Shown here in pieces: positions 1 to 64,000 of a stretch of 64,000 bases of DNA. Within the stretch, counting starts at the first letter, position 1, and every line of letters starts with the position of its first letter. The position numbers and the translations under genes are program-made. Source of the stretch: Narthecium ossifragum. Its lineage: Eukaryota; Streptophyta; Magnoliopsida; Dioscoreales; Nartheciaceae. The notes under the pieces are model-generated. The model was not told the DNA's origin and ran no database searches. It was given only the letters and a program-made list of their open reading frames with translations. The stretch is taken from the NCBI GenBank assembly GCA_963920575.1, contig OY986967.1, positions 2,136,527 to 2,200,526 of the forward strand, written 5' to 3'.

Positions 1-85
1 AGCAACGAGCCTTGCCATCTATTTCAATCAGCTTAAACTTTTGGGACAATTAATTGATGACTTAATATACTTTTCATGATTGCAG

Positions 86-1172
86 AGGAGAAGATAGAGA
101 GTAATTTGTCAAGGGTCACGGTGATTGTATGGGTGTTTGTCGTGTTGATCCTCACATCGAGCTACACGGCCAGTTTGACGAGCATGTTGACAGTGCAGCA
201 GCTCCAGCCAACGCTGACTGATCTCAATGTGCTCTTGGGGAATCAGGACTACGTGGGGTACCAAGATGGAGCCTTTGTGAAGGGGTTGCTGGAGAGGATG
301 AAGTTTAATGAGCAGAAGCTCAAGGGCTACAGCAACCCCGAGGAATACAATATCGCGCTATCCAAGGGGAGTCAAGGTGGAGGAGTCACAGCCATTTTCG
401 ACGAGATACCTTATCTCAAGCTCTTCCTCTCCAAATATTGCGCCAACTACACAATGGTCGGGCCGACATACAAGACTGCCGGATTTGGATTCGTGAGTGG
501 CGATGTTTGTTAGATTAGAATTTTCTCCCAAAGCTCTTAACCAGATATATAGCAGATCGATAATGTTGTCATGGATGCCTTCATCTTATGTAGGTTCTCC
601 CGAAAGGGTCTCCTCTGTTGTCTGACCTTTCGTGGGCGGTGCTTAACGTGACGGAGGGGGACAAGATGAAAGAGATCGAAAGGAAATGGTTCGGCGATCA
701 GACGACATGCCCAATTGAAGACAACAGCCTCGGCTCCCCAAGCCTCGACTTTAAGAGCTTTGGCGGCCTCTTCTTCCTGACCGGACTCGTCTCCTTCCTC
801 GCACTCTTGGTCTTTCTCACCATGTTCATATACATGAACTGGAAGGAGTTGAGAGGTGTCGCCTCTGATGGCTCCTTGTGGTCAACAATGGCTTCCTGGG
901 CTCGACATTACGATAAAATAGATCTCAGTTCCCACACTTTCAAGACGAAGGATTCGACCTACGTCGTCAACGGGCAAGCGGGCAATGGCCCGATTGTGCC
1001 AACATCTGATGGCACACAGACGCCGACAAGCATATCGGAGTTGTCAGACATCACCTTCTGCCCAACAACAGCGCCGATCAGTCCCTCTAGAGAGCTTGGT
1101 GACCAACCGAGAGAGATGCTAGAAGACGTTGCTCCTGTAGAGTTACTTGAGGTCAGGAGGGCCGGAGAATGA
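86..1172 (+). CDS. GLR: GLR A: 3' half of a glutamate receptor-like channel (exons 4-5)
   Basis: Ligand-gated, non-selective cation channel subunit of the plant GLR family, expected at a cell membrane. Only the 3' part lies in the window: bases 1-85 are the end of an intron finishing in TTGCAG. Exon 4 is 86-492 and exon 5 is 594-1172, joined by a GT-AG intron at 493-593 with the phase preserved. Exon 4 encodes membrane segment M3 with the gate motif SYTASLTS, then the S2 half of the ligand-binding domain. Exon 5 begins VLPKGSPLL and holds the end of S2, segment M4 (about GGLFFLTGLVSFLALLVFLT) and a long cytosolic tail ending RRAGE-stop. The visible part is 327 codons with no defect. Its tail type matches GLR C and D, not B. 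Whether the upstream exons are intact cannot be seen. Confidence 0.93.
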
Positions 1173-2690
1173 ATGCGTTGTCTACTATTTTTCTTCCCAA
1201 TTAGTTGCACTGAGTGTTATCCTCCTAACTATATAGAAGGATAAATGCTCAACATATATATTGATCTCTACAAATGATCAGATTGATCTGCAGGTGTGCA
1301 CCATTCGATAGCATATTCAATTCCATGTTTCAGCACCTGACAGTATAGTTCCAATTAATTCATGTGTGTAGGTATATATTGGTAATATTTTACTTGTTTA
1401 TGTAATTTCTCTTCATGTACATGTATGCATGTATATGCTGCATGTTGGTAAAGAAGAAATAGGTATACCTTTTCTTGTATATGCATGCCTTTGCTCTTCT
1501 ATAATCTCTACTTTTTTTGCATAGCTCATTAGGAAGGTATTCCTTTTTTCTGTGTTGATTACATGAACCAGTTGATAGAAGAGAAGGATTGAGATCAAAA
1601 TCTCAAAAATGGAAGCCCCACCAGAAAAACGCCACCCTGATCAAGAACCCATGATTGGCACCAATGCCGCAATATACACAATCCTAGCCAATGAATCCGC
1701 CAGCACCACAACCTCCCTCCGAAGAAGACAACCCAAACCTAGCAGCAGAGGTGTGGAGGTGGCAATTGGGCTTCTGGCCCAGGCCTGCATGGGCCCAATT
1801 CATTGCAGGGCCGTGCCCTGGCCCAGGCCACACTTGGTTTGGCACGAGTTGACACGAACTACCAGCTAGGCACGAGCCCAGGCATGCCTTAGGCCGAAGC
1901 CAGTGCCAACCACTCCAAACCCACAACAGTCATCAGGGCCAGCCCATTGGTACCTTACCTAATTACCTGGCAACTTCCTCAAGAACGAGCCTAAGCTCCG
2001 CCATCTCAACTGAGCAAAGCCGGAGCCATAAGAAAAGACGTCTGATCATCGCTTTCCTCAATAGAGTTTGAAATTTCCTTGCAACTTCTTGATGCTGATT
2101 GAACGAAAAGGATTTACTAAGAAGTTTGACATGCATGCTTCAAGTACACGCATAGTAGCTCATGGGCTCTGTCCTATTTCTTGATGTTGATTGGATGGTG
2201 CAATTGAATCCATAAAATGGCCTTTTAGATTCTTTCATACTAGTCAAACTGCTGGCGTAGATTCTATCTAGTTTCCTGATATTAAGCTTCAAGTCTACAC
2301 CCATGAGAATTGAATTCCCTCTTCTTGTGCTCTAATCCTTCATCCTCATAACTCATTAATTATGTAGTGCCGTAAGGTCCATGCACTGCATTGAGCATTG
2401 GGAAGGTTACTAAGAAACTTCATACGATGTCATCGGAAAGGCTCAATCAATAATCATGAGAACTCACTCCTCACTTTCCTCTCTAATAAAGATAGTATGA
2501 AATCTTGTTTTAATGTCATAGATAATAGACAATGACGTTTTATGACTTCAAGTTTGAAGTTAGTCAATTTGTGGTGCTTTAGCGTCTCAAAATGCTATAA
2601 ATTAATAATAGAGAATGATACTGATGAACAGTGCTGTCTTCTTTTTATATATTCTCAACAAGAAGTTGATTAGACCTCCCAAGCTGTAAA
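1173..2690. repeat. GLR A downstream spacer, duplicated near 44963-45240 and 52711-53900
   Basis: There is no convincing gene. The first 270 bases match the sequence after GLR D (44963-45240) and after GLR C (35351-35630). The rest, from about 1450, matches 52711-53900 closely. In the second copy the two halves are separated by a LINE and other insertions. Short open frames at 1609-1926 have no recognisable domain and their frame is not kept in the copy, so they are treated as noise. Confidence 0.8.
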
Positions 2691-2969
2691 CATGATATTC
2701 AAACAAGTGGGGATTTTAGAGTTATATATTCATTTGTCTCATAGACCAGAGTTGAAAAGATCGTGTTACACTAATATTGGAATTCCGAGTCAAGAAACTC
2801 CAGCAAGAATCTATTTCTTTCTCACATCACATGCCAACTTAGCTCTTAACAAGTCATGGTCAATCATTTTTATATGACTACTATCCACGACCCCCGCTTA
2901 ATCAAGGCCGTAGATAAATTTGTGGCATCTAGGACCTATATACATAGATAAAGCCTTGCTCTTTTCTTT

Positions 2970-2979
2970 TATATATAGG
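2970..2979 (+). promoter_or_regulatory. Putative TATA box of GLR B
   Basis: The sequence TATATATAGG lies about 75 bases upstream of the GLR B start codon, a normal distance for a plant TATA box plus short leader. The preceding 180 bases (2690-2877) recur at 21170-21365 and 56295-56400, so this looks like a duplicated GLR promoter region. The assignment is by position and motif only. Confidence 0.5.
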
Positions 2980-3044
2980 ATACAAGGACTCTTGTTTCTT
3001 TGTAGAGTCCGTCTCCAAGCCTCTTGTGGAGGGGTTAATTTCCA

Positions 3045-6668
<3,624 letters not shown>

Positions 6669-7713: not shown

Positions 7714-8747
7714 CTATCCCCCCCACCGGGCCTCTCTTGGGGCTCTCGGGGCTCCTACATAAAACTTGGTTGACCACCTGCCCCTCGTGGCCCTCGCAAG
7801 GCCATCAATCTCCTCGTTATCCTCTCTTGGTACGAACCGTACATGAATCTCTTTCAACTGGGCTGCATTCCAACAAAGTCCTTGCAGTCGGCCGCTTTGA
7901 GAACCGGACCATTGTTTCCTCCCATTAACACATTCAACCAGGTCCTTGGAATCAAACTCCAACAACACCCTCTCACAGCCTCGGCTCCTGGCGATGTCTA
8001 TCGCCCTCTTCATGGCGTATAGTTCACATCCCTAGCCTCATTAGCTCCCCCTGTCAAGAACCACCATTCTTTCCCTCCATAGGCATTCCGGCAGACAACG
8101 CCCAAGCCCGACTCTCCTTGAAAGAAGGAGGCATCGCAATTGATAGTAAAGAAATCCCTCCATGCCTCTCTAGTCGCCCGAACCTCTTGCATGTACTTCC
8201 CTTTCTTTAGCTGCCACTCCTTTCCAAGCCACAAAATGGTCTTCGAGAGTTTCTCCGGTGACTCTGCCTCCCCATCGAAGAGCATTCTATTTTGGTCCTT
8301 CCACAATATCCACAGCCCATAACCGATCTTCCCTTTCCTTAATTGCCATTCTTCCGATCTCTGGGAGGTTGATAGCACCCTCTCCCAAAGCCTCTGTTCT
8401 TCTAACTTCCCCATCCCTGTAGACATTCTGCGCCAAACCTCCCTTGACTTTTCACATTCCACAAAGAGGTGAAACTGAGACTTTCTCTGTTCCTTGCATC
8501 TCGGACACTCCGCGTCACATGCTACCTTCGCGTTGAATAGGGCCCCCCTCGTCGGCAATTTCCGATGGCAAAGCTTCCACAAGAACGTACGAACTCTAGG
8601 CCCAAAGGGCCCTTTCCATATGCAATCCCATCTTAACTCCGGGCTCCCCTCCGCCGCTGCAACCTTCCTCTGTTCTGAGATAAATTTATAGGCGGAGGAA
8701 GAAGATATTCGGCCTCTAGCTTCATGAACCCACACCTCTTGGTCGAT

Positions 8748-10274
8748 TGATGCGACTTGAAAAGTGTACTGGCTTAACAAGTCTAACCAAAATTTCTATA
8801 ATTTCCGGTGCTCTACTTTACTACTAAGGAACTAGTAAATAGCGGAGAGTCCGAGTCGAATCCACAGGGATTAAGGTGATTGAGAATGAAAGCTTAGTAA
8901 ATTTTCTACCAATGAGTTGAGAAAAGATTACGGTTTGATATTAAACTAAATTTATATTAAAGGGTTTTATGAATACGAGAGAAAAGACCACAGGATTCTT
9001 AATCAATAACTAAGGTTCTACCAGGTCTTCCTAACATTAGGGCACGTTAATCACGATGAATGGCTTTCCTAATAGTTGATAAGTAAATGGCTAGTTCTCC
9101 TTATCACTCAACAAATTCTGGTTAGGATTCATTGTTGGGAAGAACAATTATCTAAATGTCAGTGACCGAATGATTAGTTACGTTCACTGCTAATAAACCC
9201 TCTTATCAGAATGAATTCATCGCAAGTAGTAGTACGGATATGGATTTAGGTGTAAGATCAAGATGGTTTTAGCATCTTGATGGCCAAATCTACAAAGGTA
9301 GGATGTATAAAGGATTAGAGATAGAACGTAGTGGGACTAGCACTACTATTGTGGTTCTAGCACTATACAATCCCTAATCACGAAGAAGATTTTATCCGAG
9401 ATACCATGGGACTAGCATGATACTCCTAATTAGATGAATCCAATCCAAGCCCTAGCATAAACAAGCTCCGAAATCAAGTGCAAACGAGAGCAATCCATAC
9501 ATCCAGCAAGAAATCGACACCAAGGAATAAAAGAAATAGAAATCAATCCATATAAGCCAATCAATAATGTATACAAGCCCTAGATCTAAGAAATCCCTAA
9601 TAGAAACCCTAGTTACATCATAAGAATCCCATGGCTAGGGTTTTAGCTACTCATCTTTAGGGGTCGATCCATAGGTGAAAGTCGATGATCTCCTTCCGCC
9701 ATGGATCTCCTCCAAAGAATCTTCAAAGAAAAGTTCACAAGAAGGATAGGAAAACTCTCCCCAAAAAGGTCCAGGAAAAGCCCCCAAAAATCCCTAAAAA
9801 CTGATTATTTATTGCCTAGGAAAACATCCTCCCACGGATTAGATCTGAGCCGTTGATCTTCCTTTCTGGCCGCAAAGGATTGATCCTTTCAAGGAGGAAG
9901 ATCGATCCTACTATCTTCAATTACTGGTGACACCCCGTGAAGGATCGATCCTTCTAGTCGAGTACGATCGATCTTTCAATTGTTGTTATGCTACGTCCCG
10001 TGGAGGATCGATCCTTCCTTTGAAGGAAGATCGATCCCTTTATGCTTGTTCTTTGTCCAGCTGTTGGTCGAGTAGGATCGATCTCTTCAATAGAGGAAGA
10101 TCGATCCTTCATGCCAGAATTGCCAGAATACGCTTCTTTTAGCTCCAAAGTTGATCTAACTCATAGTAGGGTTTGTTATACCTAAAATGGGATAAAAGTA
10201 GTCAGTGAAGCATTGCTTTGATACCAACAAAGCCAAATTACAAAGGTGTTTTGTGTACTTTTCAAGTCTTATCA
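8748..10274. mobile_element. 1527-bp insertion with TG...CA ends and 5-bp target duplication
   Basis: The LINE copy at 60245-61675 reads straight through this site (GGTCGATCGCTTCC near 60806), proving an insertion. It is flanked by TCGAT at 8743-8747 and 10275-10279. The insert starts TGATGCGACTTGAAAAGTGTAC and ends TTTTCAAGTCTTATCA, so the ends are also inverted repeats of about 20 bp. TG...CA plus a 5-bp duplication suggests a solo LTR. The inverted ends and a tRNA-iMet-like TGGTATCAAAGC (minus strand, near 10227-10216) leave the class unsettled. There is no coding frame. Bases 9877-10108 hold an array of GATCGATC palindromes. Confidence 0.75.
9877..10108. repeat. Array of paired GATCGATC palindromes (hairpin-forming), array 1
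   Basis: Eight copies of GATCGATC or one-base variants occur within 232 bases. Neighbouring copies are joined by short complementary arms: for example 10005-10037 can pair GGATCGATCcTTCCTT with AAGGAAGATCGATCC, and 10074-10107 forms a similar stem. Spacers between pairs are unrelated. The function is unknown. Confidence 0.8.
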
Positions 10275-11143
10275 TCGATCGCTCCCATTGAAGCCACGTT
10301 TACCGTAAGGATTTGCTCTGCTTTGCACGACGAAAATAGCCTGCAAACTTTCCGTCGGCTCCATAGTTCATTCCTCCCGATGAGCTTCCCCACCCTCATC
10401 CGATCCAAATTCACCTCCATGTTCAGGACCGTAGGCTTTAGATCCAACAGTAAATCAAGGACCCACCAGTCCTGCATCACGCTTAGGTTACTTCTATGTC
10501 CCAATTTCCATTTTAACCCCAGTCTCATTTGTTTGAGGGAACCACACACACTTCACCATGATGGGGACGCACCGCTTGTCGGCTTCTCCGACGATAAACA
10601 ACCTCTCCATTTGTATTTCGCTTGCACCACCTCCTTCCAAAGGGAGGTCTCCCTCGGGCAAAGTTTGGCGGCACGTAACATCCTCAATGCCACATGCCAT
10701 ATTGCAAGACTCCGTGGAGCCACTCAACCCTGATCCTTAGAGCCGCATACTACATCCCATCTGACATTGGAGAGACCAGACCGCCGGCCATCCCAAAGAA
10801 AGGCTCTCCCCATCTTCTCTATTTTCTTTACAGCCCCTCCCAATATATCCGTTGTCGTCATCATATAAACCGGCAACGCTTGGATCACATGGTGAAGGAG
10901 CGTGATTCTCCCCGGGAGGGAAAGACAAGAACCACTCCATCTAGAGAGCCTGTACGCCACCTTGTCCAAGAGCTCACTGAAATCCTCTCCCCGGAGGCGC
11001 CTCCCGCTGATCGGGACCCCGAGGTACTTCCAAGCCCCCGTCATCTCTGCCATCCGTAACAGTCTGCATATCCGGGTCCTCCTTCCATTCCCAAGCACTG
11101 GAGATATCTTGGCGCTGGACTTGACGGGATTTAGCGCCATAAT

Positions 11144-12692: not shown

Positions 12693-13255
12693 TGATGCAG
12701 GACCAAGGGCGGACCTGACTGAGTTCGAACCAGAGCAGCTCCCGAGGCGATCCGGACGCATTCGGATTCCATCCGTCCGACTGAGACCTTTGAATGGCCA
12801 TAACTTTTGATCCGGCCGTCCGATCGGGGCGTATGACCAGTCGAAACGACCGGGTCGACGAGCCCGTCATTTATCATCGAAGATCTTTGATCTCTCCATG
12901 ACTGCTCACCGAATCGCCAAATTCCGTCTCCTTTTGCTCTAAATCTTAGTTTTAGTGAAAACTTTCCTTTTTTGGCAGTTTTATCGGTTTCTATTTTTGA
13001 CAAATTCCTAGTTTGAGTAGGGTTTCTTTTTATTATTGAATTCTGGGTTAATACTTGGATTAGGGTTTGAGTCCATGTTTGAGTTGAGTTGGTCTTTCCT
13101 TAATCCTATAAAAGGAGGCCTTAGGGTTTGTGGAGTTTCAGTTTTTGATGATTAATGAAAGTTAGGGTTTTGTTTTCTCCCCTTGAGAATTCTGGTCTTT
13201 CTCTCCCATAGAGAGGATGGTTGTGTCTCCCGTTGACAAGTTCCACCGTGCGCCA
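12693..13255 (+). mobile_element. Solo LTR, TGATGCAGG family
   Basis: A solo LTR of 563 bp starts TGATGCAGGACC and ends CCGTGCGCCA, flanked by the 5-bp duplication ATGAT at 12688-12692 and 13256-13260. It belongs to the family of the full element at 41298-44154 and has the same internal TATAAAAGG promoter-like block near its 3' third. It carries no internal coding sequence, so it arose by LTR-LTR recombination. Confidence 0.9.
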
Positions 13256-23793: not shown

Positions 23794-27655
<3,862 letters not shown>

Positions 27656-27669
<14 letters not shown>

Positions 27670-38203: not shown

Positions 38204-38760
38204 TGATGCAGGACAAAATCCGGACAACCCCCGACCGTCAGATGGCCATACCTTTTGATCCGAGTATCCGATCGGGGCGTGCGACCAGTCGAAACGACCG
38301 GGTCGACGAGCCCGTCGTTAATCATCGATCTATCTATGACGGCTGGTCAGATCGTCAAATTCCTTTTCCTTTTGGTCTAAAAATCAGTTTTAGTGAAAAC
38401 TTTCCTTTTTTGGCAGTTTTATCGGTTTCTATTTTTGGCAAATTCCTAGTTTGAGTAGGATTTATACTTTCTTTTAAATTCCGAATTTAATTACAGCTTT
38501 AGGACTTGGATTAGGATTTGATGGTTGAGTCCATGTTTATGTTTGAGTCCATGTTTATGTTTGAGTCCATGTTTTAGTTGAGTTGGTCTTTCCTTAACTC
38601 TATAAAAGGAGGCCTTAGGGTTTGTGGAAAAGAGAGTTTTTTGATGAATAAGAAAATAGGGGTTTTGGTTTCTTCCTCTATAGAAATCTGATCATCTCTC
38701 CCATAGAGAGTTTGGTTGTCTCTCCCATAGAGAGGTTCCACCTCTCTACGTTTTAAACAT
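38204..38760 (+). mobile_element. Damaged LTR of the TGATGCAGG family
   Basis: It starts TGATGCAGGACAAAATCCGG and follows the family sequence, including the TATAAAAGGAGGCC block, to about 38750. There the usual CCCTGCGCCA end is replaced by unrelated sequence. It has an extra tandem repeat of GAGTCCATGTTTATGTTT near 38526-38575. The missing 3' terminus lies shortly before the assembly gap. Confidence 0.8.
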
Positions 38761-39115: not shown

Positions 39116-41217
39116 AGCTCATTAGGAAGGTTTTCCCCGGCCTTAGCCCTTCCCCTCTCCCTCCCTTTCTTCCCCTGCTTCCTTCGTCTTCCTCACGAGA
39201 GCTCTGCTTCCCCTGTTTCCGGCTGAGCTTTTCTTCGCCGTTCTCCCTCCTCCGGCCACCGTTCTTGGAGCTTGAAGGCTCGTTGGAACCGTGATGGCGT
39301 GAGAAAGATCCTATGCTTGGCCTCGTGGATCGAAGCAGCTCTGAAGAGGTAGGGTTCTTCCTCAAAACTCCGGCTTGCTTTTGAGGGTTTAAATCCGGTT
39401 TTGTTTCTCGTTAGATCTCGTTGTGGAGTTGTTGTTTCCCGATTTTGAAGCCTTGAGTAGCTTCGTGATGCTTAGATCTACCAGCCCCTCAAGTTTGGTG
39501 AGGTTTGGTTGCGTCTTCCGGCGGTTCTCCAGCCGGAAGTGCGCCGGAACCCATCAAGATCGATCCTCCTGGGAGGAAGGATCGGTCCTCTTGTGCTGGC
39601 TTGCTGCGCCCAGCAAATGATCGATCTTCTTATGGGGGAAGATCGATCATGAGGCCTGGGTTAGCATGGTTACCCTTCAGCCCGAGAAGAATCGATCTTC
39701 CTGGGAGGAAGGATCGATCTTCCTTGGTGTGACTGGAAGGGCGCCCTCTGTCTCGAGAAAGATCGATCTTCCTGGGAGGAAGGATTGATCTTCTTTGTCT
39801 CGACAGCGAGGGCAGCTCACTGTTACTTAAGTGATCGATCCTTCCTTCGGAAAGGATCGATCCTTTAGTCGCAGCGAGGGTTTTCAAGGGTTTTGCCCGC
39901 GGGGCTTTGTATGTAAGTAGTTTTTGACGGTTTTGCCCTTGGGGCTTACTATGTTTTCATCATGCTTGAGTGTTTACTGCTTTGTGGTTAACCGAGGTAG
40001 TAACGAACCCTCGGGAATGCCTAGGATAGCGGGGCCATGGGTTATGCCCCTTTATCGCTTTATGGTGAACCGAAGGAAGTCATGATCCTCGGGAGTGCTT
40101 AGAATAAATGGGTCGAAGGTGTGCCTTTGCTGTGTTACATGTTACTGCTTTATTTAATATACTGCCCTGCTCCTGTGCATTAGACATGCTAGGCTAGACT
40201 GGGTGGGGTTGACCCGTGAACTCCGGTGATCAGAGGCTAAGTGGTAGATGCCTTTACCCGACTCGTGTCCCCATGCTGTTGCCCAGCATGGGCAAGAGTG
40301 TCCTACAGGTATCGTCTGGCCCACCCTGTGTCAAGGACCGTTGGAGATAGTTCAGTCCTCGAGCAGTGGCCATCGGAGGGACGTACGTGGACAGGAAACC
40401 TTGGGGAGGGAAACATCGATGGGATCGATGGACGCCCTGGCTAGACTTAGTCTTGGGTCAGGAGTTAGGGGTCCTGTTGGCTCTGTGGCTTGGAGTACTG
40501 AGAGGTGGTAGTCTTAACCTCGGTCGTTCCGCCAAGTGTAGAGATCCCGCTTGGAGGAGGATGTCCTACCAGTAGCGTCATGTCCACCCTGTGTCAAAGA
40601 TTGTCGGAGTTGTCCACCCCTGGGCAGTGGTTGTCGGAGGGGCGTACTTGGGACAAGAGTCCTTCGGGTTATAGACGGGATTTATGGGATCCTTGGCAAG
40701 CCTCAGTACTTGGCTTCAGGGTTGGTTCGTTGGGTTTGCCTTTTTAGCGAGAGTGGTAGAGTAGGACCCTGCTGAGCTGTTGCTCATTCCTACCTGGACT
40801 GTGTGTTGCAGGTGCGGGTCCCAGCTCCTCTCCGGTGCTTCCCCGTCGGCTGTCTCGTGGCGGCGCGCCAGCTCCTGACCATGTCTGAGGGTCAGGATGG
40901 TTTCGTTTGTGCGTTCGTGGAGACCCCTGTGGGTGCTGTAGTTTCTTTTTGGGGATTGTTGATCCCTTATAGCCTGTTGTACTAAACTCTGTTTAACTTT
41001 ATTACTGTTTTGTAATAGTTGTTAATAGATGTTGTAGTATTCGCTTCTGCCTTGTGCGTGTCGACAGCTATTTCCGCCAGCTGTCTTTTAGTCTCAACTG
41101 TTTCCGCCAGTTGAGGCTAGTAGTTGTAGGTTTTTCCCCTCGTGTCCCGGCCCGGTAGTTGTAGGTTTTTCCCCTCGTGTCCCGGCCCGGTCTGGGTCTT
41201 GCGGGTCGGGGCGCGAC
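39116..41217 (+). mobile_element. 3' portion of a gypsy-type LTR, GATCGATC family
   Basis: It ends GGGTCGGGGCGCGACA at 41217, directly against GLR D exon 4 sequence. The middle matches 63660-63990 (for example CTTCCGGCGG...GCCGGAA...GGAACCCATCA then GATCGATC). It contains a palindrome array (39555-39870), a 265-bp-spaced repeat of ATGTCCTAC/GTGTCCTAC...CCACCCTGTGTCAA at 40293 and 40560, and a 35-bp tandem duplication at 41115-41190. The 5' end is lost in the gap. If the adjacent target repeat is 5 bp, it should be ATGAA. Confidence 0.82.
39555..39870. repeat. Array of paired GATCGATC palindromes, array 2
   Basis: Ten GATCGATC copies or one-base variants lie in about 315 bases, arranged as pairs with complementary arms. 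For example 39759-39791 pairs AAGATCGATCTTCC with GGAAGGATTGATCTT across TGGGA, and the pairs beginning near 39617 and 39831 behave the same way. Only these blocks are well conserved among the LTR copies. Confidence 0.85.
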
Positions 41218-41297
41218 AATGAAGTTTAATGAGCAGAAGCTCAAGGGCTACAACAACCCCGAGGAATACAATAACGCGCTATCCAAGGGGAGTCAAG

Positions 41298-41825
41298 TGA
41301 TGCAGGACAAAATCCGGGTAACCCCGACCGTCGGACGGGCGTAACTTTCGATCCGGGTGTCCGATCGGGGCGTATGACCAGTCGAAACGATCGGGTTGAC
41401 GAGGCCGTCATTTATCGTCGGAGATCTTTGATCTCTCCATGATGGCTTGTCGAATCGCCAAATTCCATCTCCTTTTGCTCTAAATTTCAGTTTTAGTGAA
41501 AACTTTCCTTTTATGGCAGTTTTATCGGTTTCTATTTTTGGCAAATTCCTAGTTTGAGTAGGATTTCTAATTTCTTTTAAATTCCAAATTTAATTTCAGT
41601 TTTAGGACTTGGATTAGGGATTGGTTGGTTGAGTTCATGTTTTAGTTGAGTTGGTCTTTCCTTAAACCTATAAAAGGAGGCCTAGGGTTTGTAAAGAGTC
41701 AGTTTTTGATGAATAAGAAAATAGGGTTTTGGTTTCTTCCTCTATAGAAATCTGGTGATCTCTCCCATAGAGAGTTTGGTTGTCTCTCCCATTGAGAGGT
41801 CATCTTCCACGTTTACCCTGCGCCA
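41298..41825 (+). repeat. 5' LTR of the TR-GAG element
   Basis: A 528-bp terminal repeat with a TATA box TATAAAA at 41669-41675 followed by GGAGGCC, the likely promoter of the gag transcript. Confidence 0.93.
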
Positions 41826-43627: not shown

Positions 43628-44154
43628 TGATGCAGGATAAAATCCGGGTAACCCCGACCGTCGGACGGGCGTAACTTTCGATCCGGGTGTCCGATCGGGG
43701 CGTATGACCAGTCGAAACGATCGGGTCGACGAGCACGTCATTTATCGTCAGAGATCTTTGATCTCTCCACGATGGCTTGTCGAATCGCCAAATTCCATCT
43801 CCTTTTGCTCTAAATCTCAGTTTTAGTGAAAACTTTCCTTTTATGATAGTTTTATCGGTTTCTATTTTTGGCAAATTCCTAGTTTGAGTAGGATTTCTAA
43901 TTTCTTTTAAATTCCGAATTTAATTTCAGTTTTAGGACTTGGATTAGGGATTGGTTGGTTGAGTCCATGTTTTAGTTGAGTTGGTCTTTCCTTAAACCTA
44001 TAAAAGGAGGCCTAGGGTTTGTAAAGAATCAGTTTTTGATGAATAAGAAAATAGGGTTTTTGGTTTCTTCCTCTATAGAAATCTGGTGATCTCTCCCATA
44101 GAGTTTGGTTGTCTCTTCCATTGAGAGGCCATCTTCCACGTTTACCCTGCGCCA
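43628..44154 (+). repeat. 3' LTR of the TR-GAG element
   Basis: A 527-bp terminal repeat matching 41298-41825, ending CTGCGCCA and followed by target duplication TCAAG. Confidence 0.93.
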
Positions 44155-44962
44155 TCAAGGCGGAGGAGTCGTAGCCATTTTTGATGAGATACCTTATCTC
44201 AAGCTCTTCCTCTCCAAGTATTGCGCCAACTACACAACGGTCGGGCCGACGTACAAGACTGGCGGATTTGGATTCGTGAGTGGCGAATGGCGATGATTGT
44301 TAGATTACAATTTTCTCCCAAAGCTCTTAACCATATATATAGCAGATCGATAATGTTGTCATGGATGCCTTCATCTTCTGTAGGTTCTCCCGAAAGGGTC
44401 TCCTCTGTTGTCCGACCTTTCATGGGCGGTGCTCAACGTGACGGAGGGAGACAGGATGAAAGAGATCGAAAGGAAATGGTTCGGCGATCAGACGACATGC
44501 CCAAGCGAAGGCTACAGCCCCAGCTCCTCAAGCCTCGACTTTAAGAGCTTTGGCGGCCTCTTCCTCCTGTCCGGACTCGTCTCCTTCCTCGCACTCTTGA
44601 TCTATCTCACCATGTTCATATACATGAACTGGAAGGAGTTGAGAGGTGTCGCCTTTGGTGGCTCCTTGTGGGCAACAATGGCTTCCTGGGCTCGACATTA
44701 CGATAAAATAGATCTCAGTTCTCACACTTTCAAGAAGAAGGATTCGACCTATGTCGTCAACGGGCAAGCGGGCAATGGATCGAGCGTGCCAACATCTGAT
44801 GGCACACAGACGCCGACAAGCATATCGGAGTTGTCAGACGTGACCTTCTGCCCAACAACAGCGCCGATCAGTCCCTCTAGAGAGCTTGGTGACCAACCGA
44901 GAGAGATGCTAGAAGACGTTGCTCCTGTAGAGTTACTTGAGGTCACGAGGCCCGGAGAATGA

Positions 44963-57150: not shown

Positions 57151-57429
57151 GACGACCTTTTCCAAGGTTGATAGATAGATGTCCAACTATATCATTTAAG
57201 GGTGCGGCTATCTGCACCACGTTTTCAACTCAACACACCACACTTCCAGATTTTTCTCATTTTTTGAAAAAAAAATAAAAAAACCCTAAACTACCCTCAT
57301 CCCTAACCTCCCCCTCTCCTCCATCCCACCCTCATCCCCCACCTCCCCCTCTACCCTCATCCCCTACCTCCACCACCCCCCACCCCCCACCACGCCGACA
57401 GCCACCGCCGGCCCGCCGTCACCTCCCCA

Positions 57430-57765
57430 CCCAGCAGCCGGCGGCGACGGCGCCGACCCCCCCCCCCCTTTCTCTCTCTCTCTCCCGCGAGCGACTCAAG
57501 GAAGGGGAGACCCCCCCCTCTCTCTCTCTCGCGGACGACGGCGACCCCCCCCCTCTCTCTCTCTCTCTCCCGCGGGCGACGGCAGCGACCCCCCCTTCTC
57601 TCTCTCTCTCGTGGGCGACGGCGACGACACCTCTCTCTCTCTCTCTCTCTCTCCCTCCCGCGAGCGACGGCGACCCCCCCCCCTCTCTCTCTCCCCTGCG
57701 GGCGACGGCGGCGACCCCCCCCCCCACCTCTCTCTCTCTCTCCCGCGGGCGACGGCGACGAGGGA
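57430..57765. repeat. Imperfect tandem repeat, GCGGGCGACGGCGAC-C(n)-(CT)n unit
   Basis: Seven or so units of 35-55 bases, each with CGCGGGCGACGGCGAC or a variant, a run of C, then a CT run ending in CCCGCG. The array abuts the truncated start of GLR E exon 5 at 57766. Confidence 0.85.
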
Positions 57766-58296
57766 GAGAAGATGACAGATATCGAAAGGAAATGGTTCGG
57801 CGATCCGCTGGCATACCCAACCCAAGACAACAGCCTTAGCTCCTCAAGCCTCGACTTCAAGAGCTTCGGTGGCCTCTTCTTGTTGACCGGACTCGTCTCT
57901 GTCCTCGCACTCTTGGTCTTTCTCTTCATGTTCGTATGCAAGAACTGGAATGAGTTGAGAAGTGTCACCTCTGGTGGCTCCTTGTTGACAACAATGGCCT
58001 CCTGGGCTCGACATTACGATAACATAGATCTCACTTCCCACACTTTCAAGAGGAAGGAATCGATCTATGTCCCTGACAATAGGAGCAGCCTAAACGGGAA
58101 AGCTGGCATTGGCCCGATCGTGCCTAAATTTGATGGCACACAAACTCCGGTGAGCATACCAGAGTCTTTGGATATAAACTTCTGCCCAACAGCTGCGCCG
58201 ACGAGTCCGTCTAGCGACCTCTGCGGACCATTGGCATTGTTGCCAGAAGGCGATGCTTCTGTAGAGTTAACTGAGGTAACGAGGCCCGGTGAATGA
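57766..58296 (+). pseudogene. GLR: GLR E: last-exon remnant of a GLR gene
   Basis: From GAGGGAGAGAAGATGACAG onward it is homologous to GLR B exon 5 from 6162: end of S2 (ERKWFGDPLAYP), M4 (GGLFLLTGLVSVLALLVFLF) and a tail ending TRPGE-stop. The start of exon 5 and all earlier exons are gone, replaced by a CT/C-rich tandem repeat. Its tail retains 11 residues (RSSLNGKAGIGP region) that GLR B lacks, so B lost them by deletion and E is not derived from present B. It could be transcribed only as a fragment; non-functional. Confidence 0.9.
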
Positions 58297-59619: not shown

Positions 59620-60244
59620 CTAATCAGTCACCAACAAGGTTCCAAACCACTTCAGGGATCTTCCTCTCGTCGCCACGGATCCAACGAGCTTTAGAACACC
59701 CAAAACGGTGGCCGGAGGAAGGACAACGGAGGAGAAGAAGATGGGCAGCCGGAGGAAAACAGAGCAAGCAGAGCTTGCGGGAAGAAGAAAGAAAGGAGGA
59801 AGAAGAAGAGAAGGAAGAAGAGAAGGAGAAGAGAAGGAGAAGGAAGGGGAAGGTCGGAGAAGGTGGGGGAAAATGGGAAGGAGGGGTCCTCTCATCTGAC
59901 AATGGAGGACGACGGCCATCTTCTCCAAGCACAACTGCCGCGACTTTCTGGTAGAGAAGGATCAATCTTCTTCTCAAAGAAGATCGATCTTCTTAACAAG
60001 AAAGATCGATCTTCTATCAAGGAAGATCGATCCCCTTTGCCCAAAAAACAAAACTTGGACTAAAACACAAGCCCAAGCCCGAATCTTCCGATCCCGGGTC
60101 CACCTAATCATTCTAATCAAACACTAACACAACCAAGGTCAGTGTGTGCACACGCGGGTGTGAAACAAACCAACAAGGCGTAATTTGCCAAATTGCTCTT
60201 GCGGTCTACAACGAGCCACAGGGGTAGAGGGACAAGTCCTCACA
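59620..60244 (-). mobile_element. 5' portion of a GATCGATC-family LTR, minus strand
   Basis: On the minus strand it begins TGTGAGGACTTGTCCC at 60244 and matches 63173-63480 in the same order (CTGTGGCTCG, GCAATTTGG, CACACACTGACC, GACCCGGGATCG, palindrome array). It then resembles 39220-39300. It cuts the LINE copy at CATGT (60245). The 3' end was not found near 59620, so it is truncated or joined to other LTR sequence. Confidence 0.8.
59945..60035. repeat. Array of paired GATCGATC palindromes, array 3
   Basis: Four units at 59960 (GATCAATC), 59982, 60004 and 60025, spaced 21-22 bases apart. Neighbours are joined by complementary arms, for example AAGATCGATCTTCTT with AAGAAAGATCGATCTT. Confidence 0.82.
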
Positions 60245-61675
60245 CATGTACTTCCCTTTCTTTAGTTGCCACTCTTTTGCAAGCAACAAGATGGTATTCG
60301 AGAGTTTCTCCGGTGACTCTGCCTCCCCATCGAAAAGCATTCTATTCCGGTCCTTCCACAATATCCACAGCCCATAACTGATCTTCCCTTTCCTTAATTG
60401 CCATTCTTTCGATCTCTGGGAGGTTGATAGCACCCTCTCCCAATCTCTCAAACCCTCTGTTCTCCTAACTCCCCCATCCCTGTAGAAACCCTGTGCCAAA
60501 CCTCCCTTGACTTTTCACATTCCACAAAGAGGTGAAACAGAGACTCACTCTGTTCCTTGCATCTTGGACACTCCGCGTCCCATGCTGCCTTCGCGTTGAA
60601 TAGGGCTCCCCTCATCGGCAATTTCCGATGGCGAAGCTTCCACAAGAACGTACGAACTCTAGGCCCAAAGGGCCCTTTCCATATGCAGTCCCATCTTAAC
60701 TCTGGGCTCCCCTCCGCCGCTGCAACGTTCCTCTGTTCTGAGATAAATTTATAGGCGGAGGAAGAAGATATTCGGCCTCTAGCTTCATGAAACCACACCT
60801 CTTGGTCGATCGCTTCCATTGAAGCCACGTTTGTCGGAAGGATTTGCTCTGCTATGCACGACGAAAATAGCCTGCAAACTTTTCGTCGGCTCCATAGTCC
60901 ATTCCTCCCGATGAGCTTCCCCACCCTCATCTGATCCAAATTCACCTCCATGTTCAGGAACGTAGGCTTTCGATCCAACGGTAAATCAAGGACCCACCAG
61001 TCCTTCATCACGCTTAGGTTGCTTCTATGTCCCAGCGTACATTTTAACCCCAGTCTCATTTGCTTGAGGGAACCACACACAGTTCACCATGACGGGGACG
61101 CACCGCTTGTCGGCTTCTCCGATGATAAACAGCCTCTCCATTTGTATTTCGCTTGCACCACCTCCTTCCAAAGGGAGGTCTCCCTCGGGCAAAGTTTGGC
61201 GGCCCATAACATCCTCAATGCCACATGCCATATTGCAAGACTCCGTAGAGCCACTCCTCCCTGATCCTTAGAGCCGCATACTACATCCCATCTGACATTG
61301 GAGAGATCGGACCGCCGGCCATCCCAAAGAAAGGCTCTCCCCATCTTCTCTATTTTCTTTAGAACCCCTCCCAATATATCCGTCGTCGTCATCATATAAA
61401 CCGTCAATGCTTGGATCACATGGCGAAGGAGCGTGATTCTCCCCGGGAGGGGAAGACGAGAACCACTCCATGTAGAGAGCCTGTTCGTCACCTTGTCCAA
61501 GAGCTCACTGAAGTCCTCTCCCCGGAGGCGCCTCCCGCTGATCGGGACCCCGAAGTACTTCCAAGCCCCCGTCGCCTCTGCCATCCGTAACAGTGTGCAT
61601 ATCCGGGTCCTCCTTCCATTCCAAGCACCTGAGATATCATGGCGCTAGACTTGATGGGATTTAGTGCCATAATAT
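60245..61675 (-). pseudogene. LINE 3' half, copy 2
   Basis: The duplicate of the LINE remnant at 7714-11143, without the 1527-bp insertion. Minus strand 61670-61084 gives the RT end (WKYFGVPISG, FLWDGRR, WDVVCGSKDQGGVALRSL), open past the point where copy 1 has a stop. 61080-60448 gives the zf-RVT region (CPRCKEQ, FHLFVECEKS), which runs across the empty site as SMEAIDQEVWFHEARGR. There is a frame change near 60450. The RNase H domain has been removed by the LTR at 60244. Confidence 0.87.
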
Positions 61676-62975
61676 ATTCATACTAGCATGTGACGTCTAA
61701 ATAGATTGAACGTTTTCACAGCAATTAATATATTCCCTGGCAACAAAAACATTTGCTGACAGAAAACATGGTTTACAACTACCCACCTCCACGAGGGGGA
61801 GACACTCGATTCGAACAATTGAAGAGCGCCTTACCAACTCACCGAGGAGTTGTTGGTCTCAACTCCCTCAGATTTTCAAAGAACTTCATCGTCATATTAG
61901 GATCTTGTTCATTAACCATCACACAAATATTGCAAGCATTTAGTCTTTTCAAGCAAAACCTATGAAAACAATAAGCAGGGCAATTCTTTGTAGCTCAAAA
62001 GCAGGTCAACCTCTCTCTATTTTGTTGCCTTGAGACTTAGATCAAGAACCCCACATTCACATAAGAATAGCAACCGATACAGTACAAAGTCCCAAAGACC
62101 GTGCTATATAGATATCAAGTTCTCTATAGAACCAAGTCATTGCCTGCCTAAAGTTTCTGTAGCTTTCCCTGAAATACACCCACAGATCTCTTCCTCGAAA
62201 ATATTCGCAAATACTTGTAATCTTGCAAAACTTTCCTCTTTCAATCAATTTAACTTGGAAAATCATCATAAAATTTCTTTTGATGTATTTAAAAGTAAAT
62301 CTTACTTCATGAATTCTTGATTATGATTCACAATCACATCATTTAGGCTGATTTCTTTGATTATTTTGTGCCATAAATATGTTATTTCCATTACAGATCC
62401 GATAAAAATCTTTGATTTCATATACATTTAAGCTTTCTTTAACCTATAGCATACTTAGCCTGTTCCATCAGTTTTCAATCTTCAGAAGGTTTACAACACA
62501 ATACACAACAGCAACACAGGTGCCAACAAAATGAGATATATTATTATTTAGTTCCTTTGAAAGATGTACCTAGCAATAACTGTCCCAATAAGTTTTACAT
62601 ACTAGCTTTTGCTCAAGAAACTAAGGGGGCGTTTGATTGCTTGCATAAGCTAATACAATGCATTACTCAATGCAGAGCATTGCATCTGCTAATGCAGCAT
62701 TTGAGGCCCTTTTTACATTAACTAATGCATGCATCAGTTAACGAAGTGGCCAACCAAACACCCTTTTGTATTAGCTGATGCATGCATCAGTTAATGCAGT
62801 TGCCAACCAAACACTTATATAGACCAAAATGCTATATTAGCTCATGCATACATCAACTAATACAAGCAACCAAAGACCCCCTAAAAACATTAGTGCCAAC
62901 AAACCACTAGCCGCGTCATCAAAAGAAACCAGAGAAAACAAAGGCTATGATCAAATATTCAATTGAAACATATAT
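61676..62975. repeat. Spacer, copy of 11144-12420
   Basis: A non-coding duplicate of the spacer after LINE copy 1. It has a 35-base deletion near 61780 and contains the MITE at 62625-62881. Confidence 0.78.
62625..62881. mobile_element. 257-bp MITE, Tourist/PIF-Harbinger-like
   Basis: It is flanked by TAA on both sides (62622-62624 and 62882-62884). Terminal inverted repeats of about 30 bp (GGGGGCGTTTGATTGCTTGC and, reversed, GGGGGTCTTTGGTTGCTTGT) and two internal TGATGCATGCATCAGTTAA-like subrepeats are present. The empty site exists in the duplicate at about 12291-12300 (AAACTAAGAACATT). Confidence 0.92.
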
Positions 62976-63000
62976 TTGATGGATTCCGATTTAAGTACAT

Positions 63001-63037
63001 GCCACGTAGGCATGTGCATTGCACATGCCTACGTGGC
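63001..63037. repeat. Perfect 18-bp-arm palindrome with one-base centre
   Basis: GCCACGTAGGCATGTGCA, one T, then its exact reverse complement. It contains CACGTAGG/CCTACGTG words and could extrude as a cruciform or give a tight RNA hairpin. It stands just past the end of the duplicated spacer. Confidence 0.9.
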
Positions 63038-63172: not shown

Positions 63173-64000
63173 TGTGAGGACCCGTCCCTCCCCTCCTGTG
63201 GCTCGCTGCGGGCCGCAAGGGCAATTTGGTAAATTGCACCTTGTCGGCTAGTTCCACACTCGCGCTTGTACACACACTGACCTTGTTTGTGGTAATGTTT
63301 GCTTAGGATGATTAGTGGGACCCGGGATCGAAAGATCCGGACTTAGGCTTGAATTCTCGCCTAAGTTTAGCTTTCAGCACACAAAGGATCGATCCTCTCT
63401 AGCTAAGAGATCGATCCTCTTGTGCCAGAAAGTCAAGTGCGATCGTCACGGGTGATCGATCCTCCCTCAGGGAAGGATCGATCCTTCGTAAGTCGGTTCG
63501 TTTGCCTATAAAGCAAACGAGACTTTCTTCTTTTGATCCTTTTGGAAATCCGGCCATTTGAGCTCAAATCTCGCGGAATCCGAAGGTGCTAGAGGACGAT
63601 CCAAGGCTTGGTAGCTTGGATTGAAGCTGCTATAGCTCCGGTAGGGATCCTACCGACATCTCTCTTCGGGGTTTTGAGTTTTCCGGTTTGATCTGTGGTT
63701 TATTGCTTAGATCTGCGTATATAGTTGTTGGTTTCTTGTGTTTTAACCGGTTTTGGACTCGTGGGATCCTGATCTATCAGATCCCAGAGTTTCGTGGTTT
63801 TTGGTTGCCTCTTCCGGCGGTATTCTTCGCCGGAAGGACGCCGCGGAACCCATCATGATCGATCTTCCCTTGAGGAAGGATCGATCTTCTGGGTTGGTCA
63901 TGCTCCGCCCGATGAAGGATCGATCATCAGCTTGGTGAGGATCGATCCTGGTTCTTGGGGAGCATGGCTGTCCTTCGTCGCGAAGAGGATCGATCCTCCT
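63173..64000 (+). mobile_element. 5' portion of a GATCGATC-family LTR, cut by the window end
   Basis: It begins TGTGAGGACCCG, the same start as the minus-strand copy at 60244, and its 63660-63990 part matches the 39300-39700 region of the third copy. The sequence continues past the window. No coding region is seen. The preceding 5 bases (ATCCC) are the expected target duplication. Confidence 0.82.
63380..64000. repeat. Two arrays of paired GATCGATC palindromes, array 4
   Basis: Units near 63387, 63409, 63453, 63476, and again near 63859, 63877, 63917, 63939 and 63987. For example 63386-63417 can fold GGATCGATCCTCTCT against AGAGATCGATCC. The second block corresponds to array 2 at 39555. Confidence 0.85.

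Follow-up and report, generated by a model that had tools for sequence, protein, structure and literature searches.

The question raised by this locus is why an array of paired palindromic octamers, GATCGATC, occurs in long terminal repeats (LTRs) with unrelated ends and bodies, and what the array does there. The window, as we call the whole stretch of 64,000 nucleotides analysed, contains one such array within a 1527-bp insertion. A sequence-only reading had described this insertion as an element; the insertion is real, and the description is corrected here to a solo LTR. An uninterrupted LINE copy at 60245-62978 fixes its exact borders and a 5-bp duplication, TCGAT. Because the LINE without the insertion reveals TG...CA ends together with this duplication, 8748-10274 was identified as a solo LTR (family 1), with the following features.

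8743..8747: left target-site duplication, TCGAT
8748..10274, minus strand (sense): family 1 solo LTR, 1527 bp, TG...CA, with borders taken from the uninterrupted LINE copy
9806..9814, minus strand: TATA box position, here CAATAAATA
9839..9857, minus strand: promoter block ATCAACGGCTCAGATCTAA, separating array and TATA, with counterparts in the gypsy LTR L018 (at up to 4 mismatches) and in the copia-type LTR L023
9878: near octamer GATTGATC, with a single mismatch to GATCGATC
9900, 9943, 9966, 10006, 10029, 10076 and 10099: starts of the exact GATCGATC octamers
9878/9900, 9943/9966, 10006/10029 and 10076/10099, minus strand: the four octamer pairs of the family 1 array, in U3, LTR positions 169-397
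10275..10279: right target-site duplication, TCGAT

The octamer search detected seven exact copies and one near copy of GATCGATC in the block at 9878-10106, with start-to-start distances of 22, 23, 23 and 23 bp within the four pairs, and the paired octamers forming serial hairpins that the sequence-only reading had noticed are indeed present. Across the 64-kb window there are 27 exact copies, compared with a mean of 1.22 and a maximum of 4 in dinucleotide shuffles.

The array of family 1 lies upstream of the TATA position and ends 63 bp from it. A genome search with the last 455 bases of the solo LTR found copies at 89-100% identity; 40 of 2247 candidates were scored, so their number is to be read as "at least". 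Twelve copies were fetched (L033, obtained in two pieces, was used in part), and 11 of the 12 have CTATAAATA as their TATA box, the window copy alone being different. Among four copies whose edges were compared, a target-site duplication flanks the window copy and L029 (GTGGT), and none flanks L027 or L034. At two loci, a distance of 14.7 kb separates family 1 LTR copies that share one orientation. One of these loci, L038, has its LTR copies at C12 5476557 and 5491259, and between them the sense strand encodes PF17917, then PF17921 and PF00665; RNase H thus precedes integrase, as in Ty3/gypsy elements, on the strand that matches the minus strand of the window. In this relative, a stretch resembling a primer binding site, TGGCGCCGTTGTTGGGGA, begins six bases past the LTR end and is presumably a tRNA primer binding site, and a polypurine-like tract, AAGTTGGGGGGTG, stands immediately 5' of TGATAAGACTTG. 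Based on these two stretches and the RNase H-integrase order, family 1 is a Ty3/gypsy element and its array is in U3.

Three further carriers in the window, at 39116, 59620 and 63173, form a single LTR family (family 2), with local matches of 74-78% between them.

39116..41218, plus strand: family 2 LTR copy A, start masked by 200 N
39558-39862, plus strand: copy A array of five pairs, assigned to the leader because of its homology with copy C
59620..60244, minus strand: family 2 LTR copy B, truncated, with four octamers at 59960-60032 (three exact, one near)
63173..64000, plus strand: family 2 LTR copy C, incomplete because the window stops here
63387-63483: copy C, array 1
63425-63434, and 9862-9869 (minus strand): CCAGAAAG-type stretch, similar in L013 and L017
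63507-63512: copy C, TATAAA
63857 onward: copy C, array 2

The ends and bodies of these elements differ from the 1527-bp insertion, as had been claimed; matches between family 2 and the insertion are confined to the arrays, apart from those at chance level. In copy C, one array lies upstream and the other downstream of the TATA box. In the family 2 copies, and in family 1 too, the stretch CCAGAAAG, frequently in the form CCAGAAAGTC, stands close to the octamers in one orientation or the other.

At least four LTR groups whose ends and bodies do not match, including both Ty3/gypsy and Ty1/copia, carry arrays upstream of a TATA box. This position is occupied in family 1, in array 1 of family 2 copy C, in a gypsy LTR at L018 and in two LTRs at L023, the TATA box of the first L023 LTR being identified by eye. 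At L018, the array is in an LTR downstream, on the same strand, of Ty3/gypsy-type gag, protease and RT-RNase H-integrase zinc domain; the start of this LTR was derived from a polypurine tract plus TG, about 3.9 kb from the integrase frame, and not from a comparison of two LTRs. The two L023 LTRs have the form TGTTG...CAACA, carry their arrays just upstream of TATA, belong together, and show by eye the flanking repeats AATAC and TACTT. Relatives of the second occur in pairs 4.8-4.9 kb apart. At L043, an RVT_2 domain (PF07727, E 2e-79) lies between same-orientation LTRs at C8 3826892 and 3831781, and the 3' LTR carries an array; the L023-type carrier is therefore Ty1/copia.

When the LTR groups were compared in sense orientation, only chance-level matches were obtained outside the arrays and a short promoter block. 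The carriers are therefore not one homologous family, sharing through full homology is ruled out, and the claim of one architecture common to non-homologous elements holds and extends to Ty3/gypsy and Ty1/copia. The promoter block, resembling ATCAACGGCTCAGATCT, is found in gypsy and copia-type LTRs (window 9839-9857; L018, minus strand; L023:1638-1656). The interval between array and TATA matches at 72% over 111 columns between family 1 and L018, and L018 matches the first L023 LTR at 72% over 74 columns and the second at 76% over 55. As this shared sequence goes beyond the array itself, it is compatible with U3 recombination and with convergence alike.

L020 was considered as a further copia carrier and rejected, as its presumed copia LTR stretch contains no exact octamer. 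At L020:5115-5560, an array lies between divergent TATA boxes, CATATAAATA on the minus strand and CCCTATATAAAGAG on the plus strand; either two LTRs placed head to head share this array or it serves a two-way promoter. The Copia-type array at L023:7358-7808 repeats mostly every 71-72 bp, with GACAGA ahead of most pairs.

The genome-wide search for close GATCGATC pairs that had been proposed gave 82,680 pairs in 379 Mb, compared with 89 for the reversed pattern, which was the sole control (spacing allowed, 13-33), and many more carriers exist than the window alone would suggest. In 38,860 cases in the whole genome a third octamer follows the pair after 40-60 nt, compared with 0 for the reversed pattern. 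Spacing is narrow: in 97 of 100 listed pairs, counted by eye, the start of one octamer lies 19-23 bp from that of the other, and in the remaining three the distance is 30. We also requested 20 arbitrarily picked 10-kb stretches of the genome, of which 6 did not exist and 14 were used; pairs at 18-26 bp occurred in 6 of the 14. These stretches and the window (204 kb, N excluded) contain 113 copies of GATCGATC, the third commonest octamer after two AT runs, and the next palindrome other than AT runs has 20 copies. An LTR-like repeat family of the window beginning with TGATGCAGGACAAAATCC (12785-13236, 38204-38753, 41298-41825 and 43628-44154) contains no exact GATCGATC, which shows that not every such repeat carries the module.

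In three of the four families compared, the octamers show constraint. In the 12 family 1 LTRs, with CG columns excluded, 3/48 octamer columns are variable compared with 303/964 in the remaining LTR; the corresponding values are 28/59 between the octamers within pairs and 27/96 between pairs. A second count, again without CG columns, defined octamers from any row and distinguished octamers, the rest of the array span and the rest of the LTR, in that order. Variable columns were 4/51, 107/330 and 183/673 in family 1, 2/84, 121/305 and 70/421 in Copia, and 1/54, 137/452 and 23/190 in family 2 (copy C versus L017). In family 3, the octamers (3/46) showed no significant excess of conservation over the array (33/185, p 0.07) or the LTR (18/575, p 0.2). 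As the octamers stay steady and their neighbours vary, the array consists of stable octamers in changing surroundings, and the bases flanking the octamers are array-specific in several arrays.

To evaluate the hairpins, pairs were folded and compared with shuffles that kept the octamers fixed. All 15 window pairs folded better than the shuffle mean when given 8-nt flanks (z -1.1 to -3.5), 11 of them at p<0.06 and the four pairs of the 9878-10106 block at p 0.03-0.07 each. With 24-nt flanks, all 15 z values were negative (-0.2 to -4.8), and three of the block's four pairs gave p 0.11-0.22. The whole 9878-10106 block folds at z -5.4 as RNA and -5.3 as DNA. Arms were also swapped between units of the same array (72 units, 22 arrays), and the cognate arms performed better: inner arms were equalled in 7/5000 swaps, and outer arms of 4, 12 and 20 nt in 478/5000, 7/5000 and 0/5000, respectively. 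Complementarity within pairs also exceeds that of single-site palindromes (p 1e-4) and of neighbouring pairs (p 7e-4; by array 12/18, p 0.017). The pairing between arms is therefore real, and the doubt whether arm complementarity surpasses shuffled sequence is settled in its favour overall, against both shuffled and non-cognate controls; in the half-swap test restricted to the four family 1 units, the difference was not significant. Rfam and tRNA scans of the 64-kb window gave no matches.

With moderate confidence, we read the array as a promoter-proximal, dyad-symmetric DNA module that would be recognized by a putative host factor. It would act as a cis-regulatory unit of LTR promoters, each unit being a pair of palindromic octamers spaced by about 22 bp and recurring about every 60-73 bp, in arrays that end 23-86 bp upstream of TATA, with a second, downstream array in one family. 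A host DNA-binding protein, probably a dimer of dimers, would take each pair as one dyad; a dyad shared at the pair centre would account for the narrow spacing and the mirrored flanks. Binding may activate transcription or keep the promoter open, and either convergence or U3 recombination may explain how the different LTR families came by the module. Of the functions suggested by the sequence-only reading, the predicted protein-binding site is thus favoured, and its proposal of module acquisition or convergent selection agrees with the sharing and with the octamer constraint in three of four families. Several results stand against this reading: the stems of leader arrays reach up to 20 nt past the octamers, which is more than contact with a dyad needs; folding is kept through many changes between Copia LTRs; one family 2 array is downstream of TATA; and family 3 octamers are no more conserved than its other LTR columns. 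As the flanks vary between arrays, protein contact to the flanking bases would not be simple.

In the main rival reading, serial hairpins in the transcript, whether at the 3' end of the genomic RNA or, for the second family 2 array, in the leader, would serve export, stability, packaging or dimerisation. Entire arrays fold at z -5.4, -8.7 and -9.4, and the advantage of cognate arms is strongest in leader arrays. This was seen when 63 of the 72 units were split by placement (the window 6459 unit and 8 of unclear orientation or place were dropped, and the sorting of family 2 arrays depends on homology to copy C): leader arrays gave 3/5000 for inner arms and 207/5000 and 0/5000 for outer arms of 12 and 20 nt. 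In U3 arrays alone, however, the inner swap test was not significant (1027/5000), and the outer tests gave 99/5000 and 162/5000. Between the Copia LTRs L039 and L040-L042, 35-37 of 84 interior sites differ and folding is kept (z -3.4 to -4.3, with at most 1/300 random placements as good); L040-L042 are close relatives and not independent, so they count as about one comparison. The remaining comparisons of this kind were small and not significant, and for L014 and family 3 most random placements folded as well or better. In family 1, the stems are not spared by mutations that fall between or beside the octamers, 189, 147 and 204 of 300 random placements being as good, and the inner arms are its most variable class. 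G-T and A-C mismatches numbered 91 and 56 in 64 of the 72 units; three runs with shuffled right arms gave 85-98 and 49-55, so there is no strand-specific G-U excess, in line with a DNA site, and the test is uninformative on an RNA strand. An RNA stem also has no need of narrow spacing. RNA structure, another of the functions first suggested, is weakened by the unspared folding of family 1 and the missing G-U excess, and we consider it unlikely.

A neutral origin, in which tandem duplication and template-switch quasi-palindrome correction spread a GATCGATC seed with no selection, would fit the array-specific flanks and the fast turnover around the octamers. It is at odds with octamers that stay intact amid changing neighbours, with the identical octamer in LTRs of unrelated ends and bodies and with the tight spacing around 22 bp, and we give it only a slight chance. 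Slimmer still is the chance that small RNAs arise from the hairpins or target them, the hairpins being kept as a cost of promoter function, as proposed for maize Sirevirus palindromes; palindromic, structured LTR regions of maize are tied to small RNAs (PMC10760457), but this reading on its own accounts for no octamer constraint.

The DNA module that we favour resembles known systems in part. That LTR promoters can contain palindromic arrays was known by 2010 at the latest (PMC2829016). As described there, Sirevirus (Ty1/copia) LTRs contain many palindromic repeated motifs in their upper half, shortly upstream of TATA, near-identical in some LTRs of low homology; the motifs were reported as Sirevirus-specific, being present in 13 elements and absent from classic copia, and have a CGG-CCG core except for ACAATCGATTGT in Tnd-1. 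Here, too, palindromic repeats stand upstream of TATA in LTRs. However, the octamer GATCGATC has no CGG-CCG core, it is a single octamer paired about 22 bp apart, and its carriers within one genome include Ty3/gypsy (family 1 and L018) beside Ty1/copia. As the core differs, and for the gypsy carriers the lineage too, the array is not a member of the Sirevirus motifs, though it works like one. The statement that no description exists thus has to be narrowed: upstream palindromic repeats as such are described, and GATCGATC arrays in LTRs were not described in the titles and abstract openings among the matches listed for open-licence PMC papers.

In maize, a Copia palindrome, CACCGGACNNNGTCCGGTG, and miRNA-like LTR structure have been described; the palindrome is reported to recur in a Helitron, and maize Ty3 elements are generally without an obvious structure peak (PMC10760457); structured LTR palindromes are common to both cases, but the sequence differs and, in maize, Ty3 elements mostly lack the peak. 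The target motifs of VANC in VANDAL DNA transposons are likewise short and conserved, and lie within quickly evolving tandem arrays in the non-coding DNA of the transposon (PMC5735166). They are read by the transposon's own protein, have one orientation and are largely confined to their own family, whereas the arrays here are in LTR retrotransposons of several groups. In rice, GATCGATC itself is a predicted promoter motif of sperm-cell genes and in iron excess, and GATA12, GNC and GNL are said to bind a GATC core (PMC3224587, PMC6918188, PMC8207140); these are computational predictions for host gene promoters, and the excerpts mention neither pairs nor transposons.

One octamer with a defined pair geometry occurs in two superfamilies and in about 80,000 pairs of one compact genome, so that one protein pull-down might be enough to find its reader. 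The same GATCGATC arrays in unrelated families suggest that different parasites may exploit one host control protein. It is possible, though doubtful, that a large part of this genome's retrotransposon load passes through one host transcription factor as a shared gate, unrelated families of Ty3/gypsy and Ty1/copia having gained the paired dyad independently or through U3 recombination. By analogy with the rice motif upstream of sperm-cell genes, a germline factor would be a candidate reader, and male-germline use and a factor of the GATA type, which would bind a GATC core, are leads. If the arrays are convergent, unrelated selfish elements have settled on the same host input; if they were transferred, promoters move between retrotransposon superfamilies.

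Two minor observations concern the surroundings of the carriers. A near-perfect 37-bp palindrome is present at window 63001-63037, before family 2 copy C. Glutamate receptor-like frames broken by LTR elements and LINEs occur at window 61-6668, 24655-27669, 44384-44962 and 57307-58296, of which 24655-26085 was identified by comparison (best match 58%, Dioscorea zingiberensis) and the others by eye, and family 2 copy A ends immediately before a glutamate receptor-like fragment at 41219-41297.
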